Shown one piece after another: positions 16,063 to 23,289 of a DNA stretch of 64,000 nt. Within the stretch, counting starts at the first letter, position 1. Each line of letters starts with the position of its first letter. The DNA is from Burkholderiales bacterium. GTDB lineage: Bacteria > Pseudomonadota > Gammaproteobacteria > Burkholderiales > Casimicrobiaceae. A model generated the notes under the pieces. The model did not search any database and was not told the origin of the DNA. It saw nothing but the letters and a program-made list of their open reading frames with translations. Made by a program: the position numbers and the translations under genes. Where the stretch lies: contig CAJPFI010000009.1 in the NCBI GenBank assembly GCA_905339295.1, positions 1 to 64,000 on the forward strand, read 5' to 3'.

Positions 16063-17178
16063 ATGCAGCGCGCCCCCGCAAGCCCCGGCGATCCGGTCGC
16101 CGCCGTCGAGACGCCGGCGCTGGTCCTCGACCTCGACGCATTCGAGCGCAACGTCGGCGCAATGGCGCACGAGGTCGCGTCGCGCGGACTGCGCCTGCGC
16201 CCGCACGCGAAGTCGCACAAGACGCCCGCGATCGCGCTGGCGCAGGTCGCGCGCGGCGCCGTCGGCGTGTGCTGCCAGAAGGTCGACGAGGCGACGGCGT
16301 TCGTCGAGGCGGGCATCGGCGACGTGCTGGTCACGAACGAGATCGTCGCGCCCTCGAAGCTGCTGCGCCTCGCGGCGCTCGCGCGCAGGGCGCGCATCGG
16401 CGTGCTCGTCGACGACGCGCGCGCGGTGGCGCCGCTCGCCCAGGCCGCGACACACTTCGGCGTCGTCGTCGACGCCTACGTCGAGGTCGACGTCGGCGCG
16501 GGTCGCTGCGGCGTGACGCCGGGCGAGGCCGCCGCCGCGCTCGCGCGGCGGGTCGCGGAGGAGAGGTCGCTGCGCTTCGCGGGGTTGCACTGCTACCACG
16601 GCGCCGCGCAGCACCTGCGCTCACCCGACGAGCGCCGCCTCGCGATCGCGTCTGCCGCCGCGCACGCCGCCGCGTCGCGCGACGCGGTCACGCGCGCCGG
16701 CATCGCGTGCCCGATCGTGACCGGCGCGGGCACCGGGACCTGGGAGCACGAAATGGCGTCCGGCGTCTGGAACGAGCTGCAGGCCGGCTCCTACGTCTTC
16801 ATGGACGCCGATTACGCGCGCAACACGCCCGGCACCGGCGAGCGCCGCTTCGAGCACAGCCTGTTCGTGGTCGCCGCCGTGATGAGCACGCCGACGCGCG
16901 AACGCGCGATCTGCGACGCGGGCCTGAAGGCGTTCTCGTTCGATTCGGGCCTTCCGGTCGTGCACGGCCGCGCCGACCTCGCCTACCGCAAGGCCTCCGA
17001 CGAGCACGGCGTGCTGGAGGTGCCGGCGGGCGCGCGCGCGCCCGAGCTGGGCGAGCGCGTGATGCTGATCCCCGGCCACTGCGATCCGACCGCCAACCTC
17101 TACGACTGGGTCGTCGCCTGCCGCGGCGCGCGCGTCGAGCACGTGTGGCCGGTGAGCGCGCGCGGGGCGCTGGGATAG
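16063..17178 (+). CDS. DSD1-family PLP-dependent enzyme (D-threonine aldolase-like)
   Basis: Fold-type III PLP enzyme of the DSD1 family, which includes D-threonine aldolase, D-3-hydroxyaspartate aldolase and D-serine dehydratase; 371 residues. The N-terminal alanine-racemase-like barrel carries [15 protein letters not shown] and [10 protein letters not shown], where a lysine (probably K50) forms the PLP aldimine. [11 protein letters not shown] binds phosphate, and [13 protein letters not shown] near the C terminus holds the His and Cys that bind the activating metal. The substrate is likely a D-beta-hydroxy amino acid. It precedes a dioxygenase/lyase/oxidoreductase group, but a 275-base gap makes co-transcription uncertain. 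Confidence 0.85.
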
Positions 17179-17453
17179 GTGGCGGCGGAGTCGCGCAGGC
17201 GGCGCATCGCGTCGGCATCGCGTGCGTCCCGCGCGCGGCGGCGTGCCGCCCGGCTTCGGCATCGCCCGCGGGCACCGACGCAGACGGCGCCTCGCGCACG
17301 ACAGGTCGATGCCCTGTCCCCGGGGTTTCGGCGGGGCGAGCCGGCTATCCACCGGGGTCGCCGCGATCGTACACTGGGCACCCGGCAGGTCGCGACACCG
17401 ACAGGCCCGATGTCCTCGGCGATTCCTGCCGGCCGTCGGACGAGGAGGCATGC

Positions 17454-18362
17454 ATGAGACTGACCGAAGCGCAGCGGGAGACCTTTCGTCGCGACGGCTA
17501 CCTGTTCTTCCCGTCGCTGTTCTCGCCGCGCGAGGTCGCGGCGCTGGCAGACGCGGTGCCCGGTCTCTACGCGCGACGCGAGGTGTACAACGTGCGCGAG
17601 AAGGGCTCGGACGCGGTGCGCACGAACTTCGCCGCGCACATGGTCTCGGAGCCGTACGCCCGGCTCGCGCGCCACCCGCGCATGGTCGAGCCGGTGATCG
17701 ATCTGCTGGGCGAGCGCGTCTACATGCACCAGTTCAAGATCAACGGCAAGATGGCGTTCGAGGGCGACGTCTGGCAGTGGCACCAGGACTACGGCACCTG
17801 GCGCAACGACGACCTGATGCCGTCCGAGCGCGCGATGAACGTCGCGATCTTCCTCGACGACGTGAACGAGTTCAACGGGCCGCTGATGTTCATTCCCGGC
17901 AGCCACGCGAAGGGCGTGATCGACGCGAAGCACGACGTCACGACGACGAGCTATCCGCTGTGGACGCTCGACCACGACCTGATCCGGCAGCTGGTCGAGC
18001 GCGCCGGCGGCCGGAACGGCGGCATCGTCGCGCCGAAGGGGCCGGCGGGCTCGATGCTCGTGTTCCACTCGTGCCTCGTGCACGCGTCGACGTCGAATCT
18101 CTCGCCGTTCGACCGCGTGAGCGTCTACCTGTCGCTGTGCGCGGTGTCCAACCACATCCGGCGCTTCAAGCGGCCCGAGTACATCGCGCACCGCGACTTC
18201 GCGCCGATCGAGGTCCTGCCCGACGACTGCCTGCTGAAGCCGTATCCGGTCGAGCTGCCGTGGAGGGACCGCATGCCGGCGAGCGCGCTGCAGACCTCGC
18301 TCGACGTGCTGCCGGACGATGCGCCGGTCCGCGCCGCGCGTGTGGCCGGAGCCGCGCATTGA
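17454..18362 (+). CDS. Phytanoyl-CoA dioxygenase family protein, ectoine-hydroxylase-like
   Basis: Predicted Fe(II)/2-oxoglutarate-dependent oxygenase of 302 residues. The facial triad is visible: HQD in QWHQDYGTW (H110, D112) and a distal His in [12 protein letters not shown] (most likely H210), with R221 in PFDRVSVYL positioned for 2-oxoglutarate. The WQWHQDYG and PGSHAKG stretches resemble ectoine hydroxylase (EctD/ThpD), but no ectABC genes are nearby, so another substrate is likely. A good ribosome-binding site (GAGGAGG region before 17454) supports the start. Its stop overlaps the start of the lyase gene. Confidence 0.82.
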
Positions 18363-19246
18363 GCGACGGGGAGTTTCACGGCGTCTTCCCCTACCTGGTC
18401 TCGCCGATTCGCGAGTCCGGCGAGGTGGACGACGCGGTCCTCGCACGGCTCTGCGACGACCTGATCGGCGCCGGCGTCCACGGCCTCGCGCCGCTGGGCT
18501 CGACCGGCGAGTTCGCATACCTGTCGCCGGCGCAGCGGCGGCGCGTCATCGAGGTGACGATCGAGGCGGCGCGCGGCCGCGTGCCGGTGGTCGCGGGCGT
18601 CGCGTCCACGACGACCGCCGACGCGGTCGCCCAGGCCCGCGGGGCCGAGCGAATGGGCGCGGACGGCATCCTCGCGATCCTCGAGGCGTACTTCCCGATC
18701 CCCGACGACGGCGTGCATGCGTACTTCGAGGCGGTCGCGGGCGCGGTCGGGATTCCGGTCGTCATCTACACGAATCCGAACTTCCAGCGCTCGGACCTGA
18801 CCCTGCCGGTCATCGAGCGGCTGTCGCGTGTCCCGAACATCCGCTACCTCAAGGACGCGTCGACCGACACCGGGCGCCTGCTGTCGATCATGAACCGCGT
18901 CGGCGGCCGCATCCGGGTGTTCGCCGCGTCGTCGCACGTGCCGGCGTGCGTGATGCTGATCGGCGGCGTCGGCTGGATGGCCGGCCCCGCGTGCGTCGCG
19001 CCGAGGCAGAGCGTCGAGCTCTACGAGCTGTGCCGGCGCGGCGACTGGGCCGCGGCGATGGAGAAGCAGCGCCCGCTGTGGGCGCTCAACCAGGCCTTCG
19101 CGAAACACAATCTCGCGGCGTGCATCAAGGGCGGGCTCGCGTTGCAGGGCTACGCGGCGGGGGCACCGCTGCCGCCGCAGGCTCCGCTGTCGGCCGAGGG
19201 CATCGAGGACGTGCGACGCGCGCTCGCCGCGATCGGCGCGCTTTGA
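18359..19246 (+). CDS. Dihydrodipicolinate synthase (DapA)-family lyase/aldolase
   Basis: Class I aldolase-type (beta/alpha)8 enzyme of 295 residues. Schiff-base lysine K165 sits in RYLKDAST, the proton-relay Tyr137 in VVIYTNP, and the pyruvate-binding GSTGE at 47-51. The alternate start TTG (18359-18361) overlaps the TGA of the dioxygenase gene, so the two are translationally coupled. Context with an oxygenase and a Gfo/Idh dehydrogenase suggests catabolism of a hydroxylated acid rather than lysine biosynthesis. The true dapA is probably elsewhere. Confidence 0.82.
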
Positions 19247-19286
19247 CCGAGAGGGCCGGGCTCGGAGCCCGCCGCCGGGAGGTCGG

Positions 19287-20291
19287 ATGAAGAAGGTCGT
19301 CTGGGGCGTGATCAGCACCGCGAAGATCGGTCTCAACCGGGTGCTTCCGGGCATGAAGAAGAGCGCGTGGTGCGACATCCGCGCCATGGCCTCGCGCGAC
19401 GAGGCGACCGCGCGCGCGGCGGCGGATGCGCTCGGCATCCCGAAGGCGTACGGGTCGTACGAGGCGCTCCTCGCCGATCCCGAGATCGAGGCGGTCTACA
19501 ACCCGCTGCCGAATCACCTGCACGTCCCGATGACGCTCGCCGCGGCGCGGGCGGGCAAGCACGTGCTGTGCGAGAAGCCGATCGCGATCGACGCCGCCGA
19601 GGCGGCGCAGCTGCGCGACGCGTCGAAGCGCGTGCTGATCGCCGAGGCGTTCATGGTGCGCTTCCATCCGCAGTGGCTGCGCGCGCGCGAGCTGGTGCGC
19701 GAGGGCGCGATCGGCACGCTGCGCACCGTTCAGATGTTCTTCGGCTACCACAACGTCGATCCGGCGAACGTGCGCAACAGGGCGGACATCGGCGGCGGCG
19801 GTCTCTACGACATCGGCTGCTACGCGATCGTCGCGGGCCGCTGGTTCTTCGGGGGAGAGCCGCGGCGCGGGATCGCGCTGATCGACCGCGATCCGGCCTT
19901 TCGCACCGACCGCCTCACGAGCGCGCTCGTCGACTTCGGCGACGGGCGCCGGCTCGACTTCACCGTGTCGACGCAGACGGCGCCGCACCAGCGCATCCAG
20001 CTCTGCGGCACCAGGGGCCGCATCGAGATCCCGATTCCGGTCAACGCGCCGCAGGGCGCGGCGACGCGCCTGCTGGTCGACGACTGCTCGTCGCTCGAAG
20101 GCACCGGCATCCGCACCGAGACGCTGCCGGCGAGCGATCAGTACGAGCTGCAGGGCGAGGCGTTCTCGCGCGCGGTGCGCGGCGAGATCGCGCTGCCGTT
20201 CGGCGTCGACGACGCGATCGCGAACATGCGGGTGATCGACGCGCTGTTCCGCTCCGAGAGGAGCGGCGCCTGGGAGACGATCGAGGCGTGA
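19287..20291 (+). CDS. Gfo/Idh/MocA-family oxidoreductase
   Basis: NAD(P)-dependent dehydrogenase of 334 residues with an N-terminal Rossmann domain (WGVISTAKIGLNRVLPG, a variant of the usual GxGxxG) and a C-terminal alpha/beta domain. CEKPIAI is the signature EKP motif with the catalytic lysine region, and GGGGLYDIGCYAI is the conserved C-domain helix with the active-site Asp and Tyr/His region. Substrates in this family are usually sugars, inositols or aldose-like compounds. It follows the DapA-like gene by 40 bases, completing a probable three-gene operon (17454-20291). Confidence 0.85.
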   Translation: MKKVVWGVISTAKIGLNRVLPGMKKSAWCDIRAMASRDEATARAAADALGIPKAYGSYEALLADPEIEAVYNPLPNHLHVPMTLAAARAGKHVLCEKPIAIDAAEAAQLRDASKRVLIAEAFMVRFHPQWLRARELVREGAIGTLRTVQMFFGYHNVDPANVRNRADIGGGGLYDIGCYAIVAGRWFFGGEPRRGIALIDRDPAFRTDRLTSALVDFGDGRRLDFTVSTQTAPHQRIQLCGTRGRIEIPIPVNAPQGAATRLLVDDCSSLEGTGIRTETLPASDQYELQGEAFSRAVRGEIALPFGVDDAIANMRVIDALFRSERSGAWETIEA

Positions 20292-20384: not shown

Positions 20385-20555
20385 TCAGGCCGAAGGCGGC
20401 TGCTGCGGCTCGGCGTCGTCGGCCGCCGGCGGGGCCTCGTCGGCATTCGGGGCGCCGGTGCGGGCGTTCGCCTTCGCGCGGAGCTTCTCTTCCTTCTTCT
20501 GCTTCTTCGCCAGTTCGCGCTGTCGCTTCTGGTATCCGTAGTTGGGCTTGGCCAA
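20385..20555 (-). CDS. Small conserved basic/coiled protein
   Basis: A 56-residue protein starting at TTG (20553-20555), preceded at a good distance by AGGAG. It begins MAKPNYGYQKRQRELAKK and continues with a lysine-rich helix (QKKEEKLRAKANAR), then an acidic/proline-rich tail ending QQPPSA. The opening matches a widespread family of tiny proteobacterial proteins of unknown function (MAKPNY.fQKRQRELAKKxKKEEK). It is divergent from the PP-loop genes. Function unknown; the strong start and conserved sequence make it a likely real gene. Confidence 0.75.
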   Translation of the reverse strand: MAKPNYGYQKRQRELAKKQKKEEKLRAKANARTGAPNADEAPPAADDAEPQQPPSA

Positions 20556-20772: not shown

Positions 20773-21996
20773 GTGCGACTCGAAAGCATCGACATCTCGC
20801 CTTCGCCCGATCGCCCCGACGCGGTGCGGCTCACCGGACATGTCCGCTACGACCGCGCGCGGGAAGGGCCCGCGTCCGAGGATTACTGGTACGAGTTCCC
20901 GGCCTCGGTCGCGGAATCGGTCTCGACGACCGGCAACCCCTGGCTCGCGTGCCTGCTGCCGGTCGCCGTCGAGCTGGGCGAGCCGCTGGCCCTGTGCCGG
21001 CCGGTCGACGCACTGATGCTCGACAATGCGCACGAGCGGATGGCGACGTGGCACTGGTGGAGCCCGCGGCACGCTCCGGTACCCATCGAGGCCGACGTCG
21101 CGGCCCCGGACACCGACGCGACCCGGCGCCGGCGCACGGCGAGCCTGTTCTCCGGCGGCGTCGACTCGTTCTACACGGCGCTGTCGCCGCGCGCCGCGCC
21201 GATCGACGACCTGATGCTCATCCACGGGGCGTTCGACCTGATGCACGCGAAGCGCGCGGCCTTCGAGCGCGTGCAGGCGAAGCTGCAGGCCGCGGCCGAC
21301 GCGCTCGGCATGGCGCTGGTCCCCGCGACGACGAACCTGCTGCACACGCGGCTCCGCAAGACCGACCTCGTCTTCATCTCGCAGGGTTCGATGATGGGCT
21401 CGGTCCCGCTCGCGCTCGAGCAGCGCTACGGGCGCGTGCTCATCCCGGCCAGCGTCGATCTCGACTGGAAGGAGGCATGGGGAACGCACCCGCTCACCGA
21501 CGCGCTGCTGTCGACGAGCCGCACGAGCGTGACCGAGGATGCGTTCGCGGTCCGTCGCATCGACAAGACCGTGGCCGTCGCGCAATCGGACGTCGCCCTC
21601 GCGGCGTTGCGGGTGTGCCTGTTCACCGGCGACGAGACCAACTGCATGGACTGCGAGAAGTGCCTGCGCGCGGCGATCGTCCTGGAGACCATGGGCGTCC
21701 TCGGGCGTGCCGCGGCGTTCCGCGCGGGATCGCTCGACGTGCAGCGAATCCGGCGCATGACGATCGGCGATCCGCACGTCCGCCACTATTACGACGAGCT
21801 GCGCGCATTCTGCCGCCAGCACGGACGGGAGGATCTCGCCAGGGCGATCGAGCACGCGCTCGCGCGCGCGCGCCGGCACGATCCGTTCCGCCCGCTCGTG
21901 CGCTGGCTGCGCAGGCTTCCGCTCGTGGGACCGGCCACGCACTGGATCGAGGCGCGCGTGCAGGACGTCGGCGTCACGAAGCACAGGCTGCAATGA
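20773..21996 (+). CDS. QueC-like PP-loop ATPase-fold protein, first of a tandem pair
   Basis: Protein of 407 residues from the GTG at 20773. The PP-loop SGGVDS (127-132) marks an adenine-nucleotide alpha-hydrolase fold that adenylates substrates. Cysteines 282, 291, 294 and 297 form C-x8-C-x2-C-x2-C (in RVCLFTGDETNC onward), the spacing of the zinc site in QueC, the 7-cyano-7-deazaguanine synthase. Unlike QueC (about 230 residues) it has an extra ~125-residue N-terminal domain with WYEFPASVAESV and NPWLACLLPVAVELGEPL. The following gene is a paralogue colinear over the whole length. I do not know its function; an amide- or nitrile-forming role is possible. Confidence 0.75.
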   Translation: MRLESIDISPSPDRPDAVRLTGHVRYDRAREGPASEDYWYEFPASVAESVSTTGNPWLACLLPVAVELGEPLALCRPVDALMLDNAHERMATWHWWSPRHAPVPIEADVAAPDTDATRRRRTASLFSGGVDSFYTALSPRAAPIDDLMLIHGAFDLMHAKRAAFERVQAKLQAAADALGMALVPATTNLLHTRLRKTDLVFISQGSMMGSVPLALEQRYGRVLIPASVDLDWKEAWGTHPLTDALLSTSRTSVTEDAFAVRRIDKTVAVAQSDVALAALRVCLFTGDETNCMDCEKCLRAAIVLETMGVLGRAAAFRAGSLDVQRIRRMTIGDPHVRHYYDELRAFCRQHGREDLARAIEHALARARRHDPFRPLVRWLRRLPLVGPATHWIEARVQDVGVTKHRLQ

Positions 21997-22041
21997 CCCG
22001 CCGGCGCGCCCGCGTCGCCTGACATCCTCCGGCGCCGGACC

Positions 22042-23289
22042 GTGAAGCTGCAACACGTCGAGATCGCCCGGTCGCCGGACCGGCCGGGCCACGTGCGGCT
22101 GAACGGCGTCGTCCGCTACGACCGGCCGCGGGACGGCCGCGCCGAGGAAACCTGCTGGTACGAGGTCCCCGACGCATTCGCCGGCGATCTGTCGACCTCC
22201 GGGAACCCGTGGCTCGCGGGACTGTTGCCGGTCGCCGTGTCGATCGGTGAACCGCTCGTCATCGCCCGACCGGTCGACGCAATGCTGCTCGACAACGTGC
22301 ACGACCTCATGGCGATCTGGCACGTCTGGTATCCGCACCGGGTGCCGGTGGCGATCGAAGCCGACGTGACGCCGAGCTTCGCGCCGCCCGAACCCGGCGC
22401 GCCGGCTCCCGGCCGCCCTGCGCGCCGCACCGCGTTGTTCTTCTCGGGCGGCGTGGATTCCTTCTGCACCGCCCTGCGCGCGCGGTCGTCGCCCATCGAC
22501 GACCTGCTGCTCGTGCTCGGTTCGTTCGACCTCGTGGGGGCGACGCCGGCGTCGCTCGATCGCGTCCGGGCGAAGCTCGAGATCGCGGCCGATGCGATCG
22601 GCAAGACGCTCGTGCCGATCGCGACGAACCAGATGCGCACGCGCATGGCCGAATGCGATCCGAGGAACCTGGGGGGCACTCCGATGCTCGCGGCGGCGGC
22701 GCTCGCGCTCGAGCGCCGATACGCGCGCGTGCTGGTCTCCGCGAGCTGCGACCTCGATTTCATCGTCCCGACGGGCGCCCATCCGCTCATCCCCCCGCTG
22801 ATGTCGACGAGCGGCACGCGCTTCGACGAGGAGGGCATCGCGATGACGCGCATCGAGAAGACCGCCATCGTCGCGCGCTGCGACGCGGCGCTCGCCGCGC
22901 TGCGCGTGTGCTTCATGAGCGGCGACGAGACCAACTGCATGCAGTGCGTGAAGTGCATCCGCACCGCGACCACGCTTGAGGCCCTCGGCGTGCTCGGGCG
23001 GGCGACCGGGTTCGGCGGCGGCACGCTCGACCCCGCGCGTGTCGCGCGCGCCACCGTGGTCGACGCGAGCGACCGGCACTACCTCGTGGATCTGCCCGAC
23101 TTCTGCCGCGAGCACGGGCGCCCGGACCTCGCGCGCGCGGTCGAGCGCGCGCTCGCGCGATCGCGGCTTCACGACCCGTTCCGGCCGCTCGTGCGCTGGC
23201 TGCGGCGCTTCCCGGTCGTCGGCCCGGCGACGCGCTGGCTCGAGGCGCGCGTGCAGGACTCCCCGGTTCCGACGCGCAGGTCACCGTGA
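22042..23289 (+). CDS. QueC-like PP-loop ATPase-fold protein, second of a tandem pair
   Basis: Paralogue of the preceding gene, 415 residues from the GTG at 22042. The two align from the first residues (SPDRP, VRYDR, WYE.P, NPWLA, RPVDA). SGGVDS is at 135-140 and the zinc-type motif C-x8-C-x2-C-x2-C is at 290, 299, 302 and 305. A proline-rich insertion (about 111-127) precedes the PP-loop. The C-terminal helices (RLHDPFRPLVRWLRRFP) are nearly identical to those of the first copy. The 45-base gap suggests one operon. Retention of both active-site motifs implies both copies are functional and may have different substrates or form a heterodimer. Confidence 0.75.
   Translation: MKLQHVEIARSPDRPGHVRLNGVVRYDRPRDGRAEETCWYEVPDAFAGDLSTSGNPWLAGLLPVAVSIGEPLVIARPVDAMLLDNVHDLMAIWHVWYPHRVPVAIEADVTPSFAPPEPGAPAPGRPARRTALFFSGGVDSFCTALRARSSPIDDLLLVLGSFDLVGATPASLDRVRAKLEIAADAIGKTLVPIATNQMRTRMAECDPRNLGGTPMLAAAALALERRYARVLVSASCDLDFIVPTGAHPLIPPLMSTSGTRFDEEGIAMTRIEKTAIVARCDAALAALRVCFMSGDETNCMQCVKCIRTATTLEALGVLGRATGFGGGTLDPARVARATVVDASDRHYLVDLPDFCREHGRPDLARAVERALARSRLHDPFRPLVRWLRRFPVVGPATRWLEARVQDSPVPTRRSP

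Follow-up and report, generated by a model that had tools for sequence, protein, structure and literature searches.

What reaction do two adjacent genes catalyse, and on which substrate, when both of their products resemble QueC, the 7-cyano-7-deazaguanine synthase? The genes, hereafter copies A and B, lie in a window of 64,000 nucleotides, the whole stretch of DNA that was analysed, on contig C9 (CAJPFI010000009.1) of a 4.03-Mb Burkholderiales genome. On sequence grounds, both proteins belong to an uncharacterised and unnamed family of QueC-like PP-loop proteins, and outside the genus of the window the association of this family with polysaccharide pyruvyl transferases is statistically strong. 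Our tentative reading, held at somewhat less than even confidence, is that the family would adenylate a carboxylate and convert it into an amide or nitrile, the substrate being an acidic sugar or other surface-polysaccharide component, or a keto acid. The pair and its parts are laid out as follows.

20773..21996, + strand: PP-loop copy A (P0001), 407 amino acids, GTG start
20773..21132, + strand: N-terminal domain of copy A, residues 1-120
21151..21168, + strand: PP-loop SGGVDS of copy A, residues 127-132
21556..21567, + strand: R262-x2-K265 of copy A, each conserved in 36/37 relatives
21616..21663, + strand: presumed zinc site of copy A, C282, C291, C294 and C297
22042..23289, + strand: PP-loop copy B (P0002), 415 amino acids, GTG start
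22444..22461, + strand: PP-loop SGGVDS of copy B, residues 135-140
22909..22956, + strand: presumed zinc site of copy B, C290, C299, C302 and C305

The two genes share a strand, are separated by 45 bp and encode proteins that are 57% identical. This confirmed the tandem, colinear pair with SGGVDS and C-x8-C-x2-C-x2-C motifs announced in a preliminary description of the window, as well as its suggestion of a duplicated enzyme. The cysteine motif is exact in both copies (residues 282-297 in A, 290-305 in B). Because the same tandem pair occurs in G015, a genome of the same genus (A-A identity 64.6%, B-B identity 53.9%), copies A and B are not chance open reading frames.

No Pfam, NCBIfam or PADLOC model scored above its cut-off for either copy, so that the search for a characterised family covering the homologues left the pair as uncharacterised as it had first been described. 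The nearest sub-threshold models were DUF6395 (15 and 14.1 bits, cut-off 25) and, for copy A only, QatC NF041925 (11.5 bits, cut-off 280). PDB sequences gave no match to copy A at E <= 1 and only weak matches to the family profile (best E 0.033). In the alignment of 37 family members on which all motif and conservation counts are based, G129, D131, C282, N290, C291, C294 and C297 (copy A numbering) are invariant, and R262 and K265 are each conserved in 36 members. S-x-G-x-D occurs in 36/37 members and exact SGGxDS in 15/37. The four cysteine columns are thus conserved across all 37 homologues, with the exact x8 spacing in 8 of them, the first gap being variable.

Relatives are sparse. Counting the host genome itself, they were found in 4 of the 61 nearest genomes, 10 of the 398 genomes of a phylum sample and 10 of the 369 of a class sample. 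Plasmid-borne relatives, all labelled hypothetical protein, occur in Azospirillum, Gemmobacter, Nostoc, Gloeothece, Priestia and the archaeon Halorientalis. The sole match in a scan of genome contigs was a Burkholderiales metagenome contig (JADLBN010000111.1) identical to the contig of G001, another genome that carries the pair. An 848-amino acid protein encoded at L062 4248-6791 joins a family member (residues 2-339) to an aspartyl/asparaginyl hydroxylase domain (residues 430-581).

A profile-profile alignment with hhalign placed the family over 204 columns of a seven-QueC profile (probability 95, E 3e-8) with the cysteine motif in register. An AlphaFold model of copy A, built from a 15-row alignment, reached a predicted local distance difference test score (pLDDT) of 88.6 and a predicted template modelling score of 0.86. 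The predicted fold is of the QueC type, and the sole PDB match at E <= 0.001 in Foldseek was QatC (7.6e-5, 407 columns, template modelling (TM) score 0.45, root-mean-square deviation 8.1). Weaker matches, at E 0.016-0.086, included the ArtA nitrile synthetase, LarE and Cap9. The N-terminal domain was modelled as three long strands followed by three helices (pLDDT 90.8 when modelled alone) and matched no PDB structure at E <= 0.001, the best hit being a designed protein at 6.7e-3. The extension that the preliminary description had singled out is present, with about 120 residues ahead of the PP-loop motif in copy A and about 128 in copy B, but it is not unique, as QatC also has one (PMC13279940).

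Comparison with named systems left the pair outside each of them. The copies share with QueC (PF06508) the SGGxDS and C-x8-C-x2-C-x2-C motifs and a profile-alignable core. They differ from it by the roughly 120 additional N-terminal residues, by the lack of any PF06508 match at E <= 1 and by the motifs YxQxHxxE, VPxRN and YPDC, each found in 0/37 members and given as QueC substrate motifs in PMC13329287. Among solved structures, QatC (qatABCD; NF041925; PDB 9ZEE/9ZEF, 9y02) comes closest end to end, with a QueC core plus N- and C-terminal extensions that the model of copy A shares; an HP dipeptide in the substrate loop of both window copies is a further common feature. However, copy A scores 11.5 bits against a cut-off of 280 and copy B not at all, the zinc variant C(x)19CGxCxxRR is found in 0/37 members, and the family profile aligns with a six-QatC profile over only 31 columns, around the cysteines. 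Moreover, a Pfam scan of seven neighbouring proteins in the window showed no qatA or qatD. On all three counts, score, zinc spacing and partners, QatC is ruled out as the identity of the family, and the host genome itself has no QatC match. The same seven neighbours include no que- or qat-type gene, in agreement with the preliminary description, and no CD-NTase match, which together with the lack of a QueD-family gene for deazaguanine supply sets the pair apart from Cap9 of type IV CBASS.

DUF6395 (PF19932) is the sole Pfam model that touches copy A at E <= 1, with both copies below the cut-off. A Priestia plasmid that carries a tandem pair of the family also encodes a PGAP-named DUF6395 protein (L212 17225-18541) with SGGVDS and C-x8-C-x2-C-x2-C, from which it follows that DUF6395 is itself QueC-like; the family profile scores this protein at 15.6 bits, versus about 200 for members. 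No paper on DUF6395 was found in the open literature, and a survey that returned 0 matches in 299 genomes returned 0 in 14 control genomes as well and is hence uninformative. In the wide sense of a PP-loop core with a four-cysteine presumed zinc site, motifs and predicted fold place the copies in the QueC-like superfamily, of which the pair is an unnamed variant that falls outside every named family.

The survey of homologue neighbourhoods suggested in the preliminary description revealed that adjacent copies recur in several lineages and uncovered the link to polysaccharide genes, which that description had missed because it lies outside the window. Among 22 family-bearing genomes, 18 matches to PF04230 (polysaccharide pyruvyl transferase) were found, 7 of them within 3.5 kb of a family member and 5 within 1 kb. 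Chance expectation was 0.08 and 0.03, respectively, as calculated with rounded genome sizes and with loci of one genome that are not independent. In G617 the two are fused in a 753-amino acid protein (family at 4-368, PF04230 at 401-608). On annotated plasmids, a polysaccharide pyruvyl transferase gene adjoins a member in Gemmobacter, Azospirillum, both Gloeothece and both Priestia records, and lies two genes away from a second Gemmobacter member. On the Priestia megaterium plasmid, the transferase gene adjoins a tandem pair accompanied by glycosyltransferase and galU genes, and the same plasmid also carries a UDP-glucose dehydrogenase-family gene and spore-coat genes. In Halorientalis, an ATP-grasp gene adjoins the member, and asparagine-synthase and flippase genes lie in the same stretch.

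Furthermore, we compared 148 neighbour genes (of 157 called at 28 loci, nine long genes being left out) with 148 control genes (of 153 called in 20 stretches), listing families with two or more members. PF00535 (glycosyltransferase family 2, GT2) was found 12 times among the neighbours, PF04230 7 times and PF13440 (Polysacc_synt_3) 6 times, versus at most once each among the controls. A PF04230 profile of our own detected six of the neighbour genes strongly and L188:4648-5532 weakly. A polysaccharide-type label was given to 12/27 loci outside the genus of the window versus 2/20 control stretches (GT4 or Wzc). The relative that groups closest to the window pair (99/97 support), in G554, lies beside glycosyltransferase-family-9 (heptosyltransferase-family), GT2 and GT4 genes. 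Other neighbours seen at several loci were a GGDEF gene, a PHB depolymerase, ATP-grasp and a metallophosphatase. No second fusion with PF04230 could be confirmed: the candidate in L056 scored 20.1 bits with Pfam, below the cut-off of 25.3, and our own profile detected nothing there. We found no report in the open literature that joins QueC-like or PP-loop proteins with polysaccharide pyruvyl transferase.

The carboxylates of polysaccharide clusters are those of acidic sugars and pyruvate ketals. According to PMC13329287 and PMC13060819, QueC, Cap9 and ATP-dependent nitrile enzymes use ATP to activate a carboxylate or the corresponding amide. WbpS, an asparagine-synthetase relative, makes uronamides in polysaccharide clusters, as described in PMC7468200. 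Taken together, these precedents lead us to favour adenylation of an acidic glycan component. WbpS would share the product class of the family if this reading is right, and differs in belonging to another PP-loop family, related to AsnB (PMC7468200). The WbpG-type N-sugar amidotransferases are PP-loop enzymes of O-antigen clusters as well (PF06508 cluster 5-2 in PMC13329287) and differ by their cysteine pattern CxxC-x6-CxC, found in 0/37 family members.

In the scheme that we favour, both proteins would be zinc-containing PP-loop enzymes of the QueC type, the four cysteines presumably binding the metal. The SGGVDS loop would bind ATP, and the substrate carboxylate would be adenylated with release of pyrophosphate. 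An amine or ammonia could then displace AMP to give an amide, and a second round could yield a nitrile, as in QueC. For the family, the substrate would most likely be an acidic component or precursor of a surface polysaccharide, for instance a uronic acid or an acid derived from pyruvate. In the genus of the window, the same chemistry would probably act on a soluble or lipid-linked acid, perhaps the keto-acid product of an adjacent DapA-family enzyme. Copy A would be the better conserved catalyst, and copy B a partner subunit, possibly in an A-B complex, or a diverging copy.

Several observations weigh against the assignment to glycans. Taken alone, the per-gene control for PF04230 is weak (7/148 versus at most 1/148, P 0.015-0.067), 15/27 loci outside the genus bear no polysaccharide label at all, and the 12/27 figure leans towards association because those very loci had been used to seed the labels. 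The neighbourhood may mean just shared residence in polysaccharide regions. In the genus itself, the pair-bearing genomes G000, G015 and G001 have 0 PF04230 genes, no glycan gene was found among the seven scanned window neighbours, and the pair adjoins a DapA-family gene rather than glycan genes. That gene family also occurs without the pair, with copies of 71-78% identity in G010, G007 and G009. Finally, the TM-score to QatC is just 0.45.

The role of copy B is the point on which a competing account fares best. Adjacent members were found in the window, G015, G001 (with a short second copy), G035 (three members), G123, G292, G439, G376, G617 and two Priestia plasmids. A tree of 54 proteins gives a group apiece to the pair of the window genus (support 100/100), to the Priestia pairs (100/100), to the G617 pair (100/99) and to the G123 copies (100/99). 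Of the copies in G292, G439 and G376, six in all, five are divided between two distinct groups, both well supported, inside a single clade (97/95), and the remaining one is placed elsewhere in the tree with weak support. These separate groups imply duplication with retention at least five times, and in G292, G439 and G376 two kinds of copy are, judging from the tree, kept side by side across different families. Against this background, copy B could be a duplicate that is decaying and has no separate function, a possibility that we regard as real if somewhat unlikely. It diverges faster than copy A between the window and G015 (53.9% versus 64.6% identity), and the substrate loop, WGSHPxxD in the family, reads TGAHPLIP in the window copy B and DLDYSQVA in that of G015. 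In G001 the copy B frame spans 187 amino acids and matches just residues 2-138 and 356-401, so that the middle is missing. Conversely, SGGVDS and all four cysteines are retained in copy B of both the window and G015, adjacent pairs recur in other lineages, and the short frame of G001 may be an assembly fault because G001 is a fragmented metagenome assembly. The split roles once proposed for the duplicates are possible, and so is decay, given the faster drift of copy B and the middle missing in one genome.

The chromosomal setting in the genus raises a second alternative, and two genes upstream of the pair are needed to weigh it.

18359..19246, + strand: DapA-family gene (DHDPS, PF00701), candidate partner, with an 84% identical copy upstream of the pair in G015 and G001
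19287..20291, + strand: Gfo/Idh/MocA oxidoreductase gene, between the DapA-family gene and copy A in the window

The pair and the DapA-family enzyme might together act on a keto or amino acid in a small-molecule pathway unrelated to glycans, which we consider unlikely. The DapA-family gene lies directly upstream of copy A in G015 (4-bp overlap, GTGA) and in G001, and one gene away in the window; the Gfo/Idh/MocA gene does not intervene in G015 or G001. The PhyH, D-ser_dehydrat/Ala_racemase_N and Gfo genes of the window, all co-directional, would suit such a pathway. Yet the pattern comes from just three genomes, close DapA-family copies occur without the pair as noted above, and the linkage may be inherited rather than functional because the whole surrounding stretch is syntenic in G000, G015 and G001.

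Window positions 16063-20291 hold, in one direction, D-ser_dehydrat/Ala_racemase_N, PhyH, DHDPS and Gfo/Idh/MocA genes, with a 4-bp overlap between PhyH and DHDPS; only the DHDPS gene of this set was matched in G015 and G001. A small basic protein frame (AKPNYGYQKRQRELAKK...) on the minus strand at 20385-20555 has no counterpart in the G015 and G001 stretches around the pair, and is therefore probably unrelated to it, as the preliminary description had supposed.

Modification of proteins in the manner of QatC or Cap9, with a carboxylated small molecule attached to a protein N-terminus and possibly an antiphage role, appears improbable. QatC is the closest solved structure, and in G015 the stretch directly after the pair (L019 1-7282) holds an HmaA-type helicase gene (1674 bits) and the first part of an HmaB-type methylase gene, separated by AlbA_2 and ParA-like genes. 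However, both Hma-type genes are absent from the downstream flanks in the window and G001, the NF041925 score is far below its cut-off (11.5 versus 280 bits), and the QatC zinc spacing occurs in none of the 37 members. Furthermore, PADLOC gave no match of weight for the pair and none for the G617 fusion protein, and the host genome has no PTPS/QueD-family gene. With no qat or CBASS partner either, the antiphage role raised in the preliminary description is not indicated.

Sulphur transfer or thiolation as in LarE, NcsA and TtuA, with the four cysteines holding an iron-sulphur cluster, is quite improbable. All three proteins are among the weaker Foldseek matches, but the cysteine spacing is QueC-like and aligned with the QueC zinc site, and the family has no additional invariant cysteine.

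The host genome also bears on a role in queuosine synthesis. It showed no PTPS/QueD-family match (QueE was not searched for), and its one PF06508 match, in a 636-amino acid frame, scored 21.3 bits (26.5 with neighbours in frame), versus 224-265 bits for ten full-length QueC matches in the same search. The genome therefore probably makes no deazaguanine acid, the substrate of QueC and Cap9. Among the 16 genomes of the genus that were searched, one (G006) has a full-scoring QueC, which suggests that de novo preQ0 synthesis is missing from most of the sampled genus. Substitution of the pair for the missing QueC, suggested by the presence of TGT in a genome that lacks a full-scoring QueC, was rejected as extremely improbable: the PTPS/QueD-family gene is missing too, so no substrate is made, and the three QueC substrate motifs are found in no family member.

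Returning to adenylation of acidic glycan components, a further lead came from phage-type contigs, 16 of which in IMG/VR carry a relative. Ten neighbour proteins from six of these contigs were scanned. L050, L051, L052 and L055 yielded tail-fibre, tail or virion proteins, L047 showed a weak match to a tail spike, and L061 gave nothing. In L049, which has genes matching those of L050, an O-antigen-ligase-family gene adjoins the member. Queries with copy A and with two phage-contig members found no match in named phage genomes. Such contexts would suit surface-converting genes, and we take them only as a lead. In a broader scenario that is rather unlikely as a whole, QueC-type synthetases would form amides or nitriles on acidic surface glycans, often as two-subunit enzymes coupled to pyruvyl transferases, in one case by fusion. 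Phages would also carry them next to tail-fibre genes for surface conversion, and the window pair would be a member that has moved away from glycans and may act on a new acid.

QueC-type enzymes are known for their action on tRNA and DNA bases and, lately, for protein tagging in phage defence. If the glycan reading is true, surface sugars would be a third field for the QueC-type scaffold, and a group of plasmid proteins now annotated as hypothetical would be explained. It would also suggest that bacterial polysaccharides carry amide or nitrile groups, which routine analysis may overlook.

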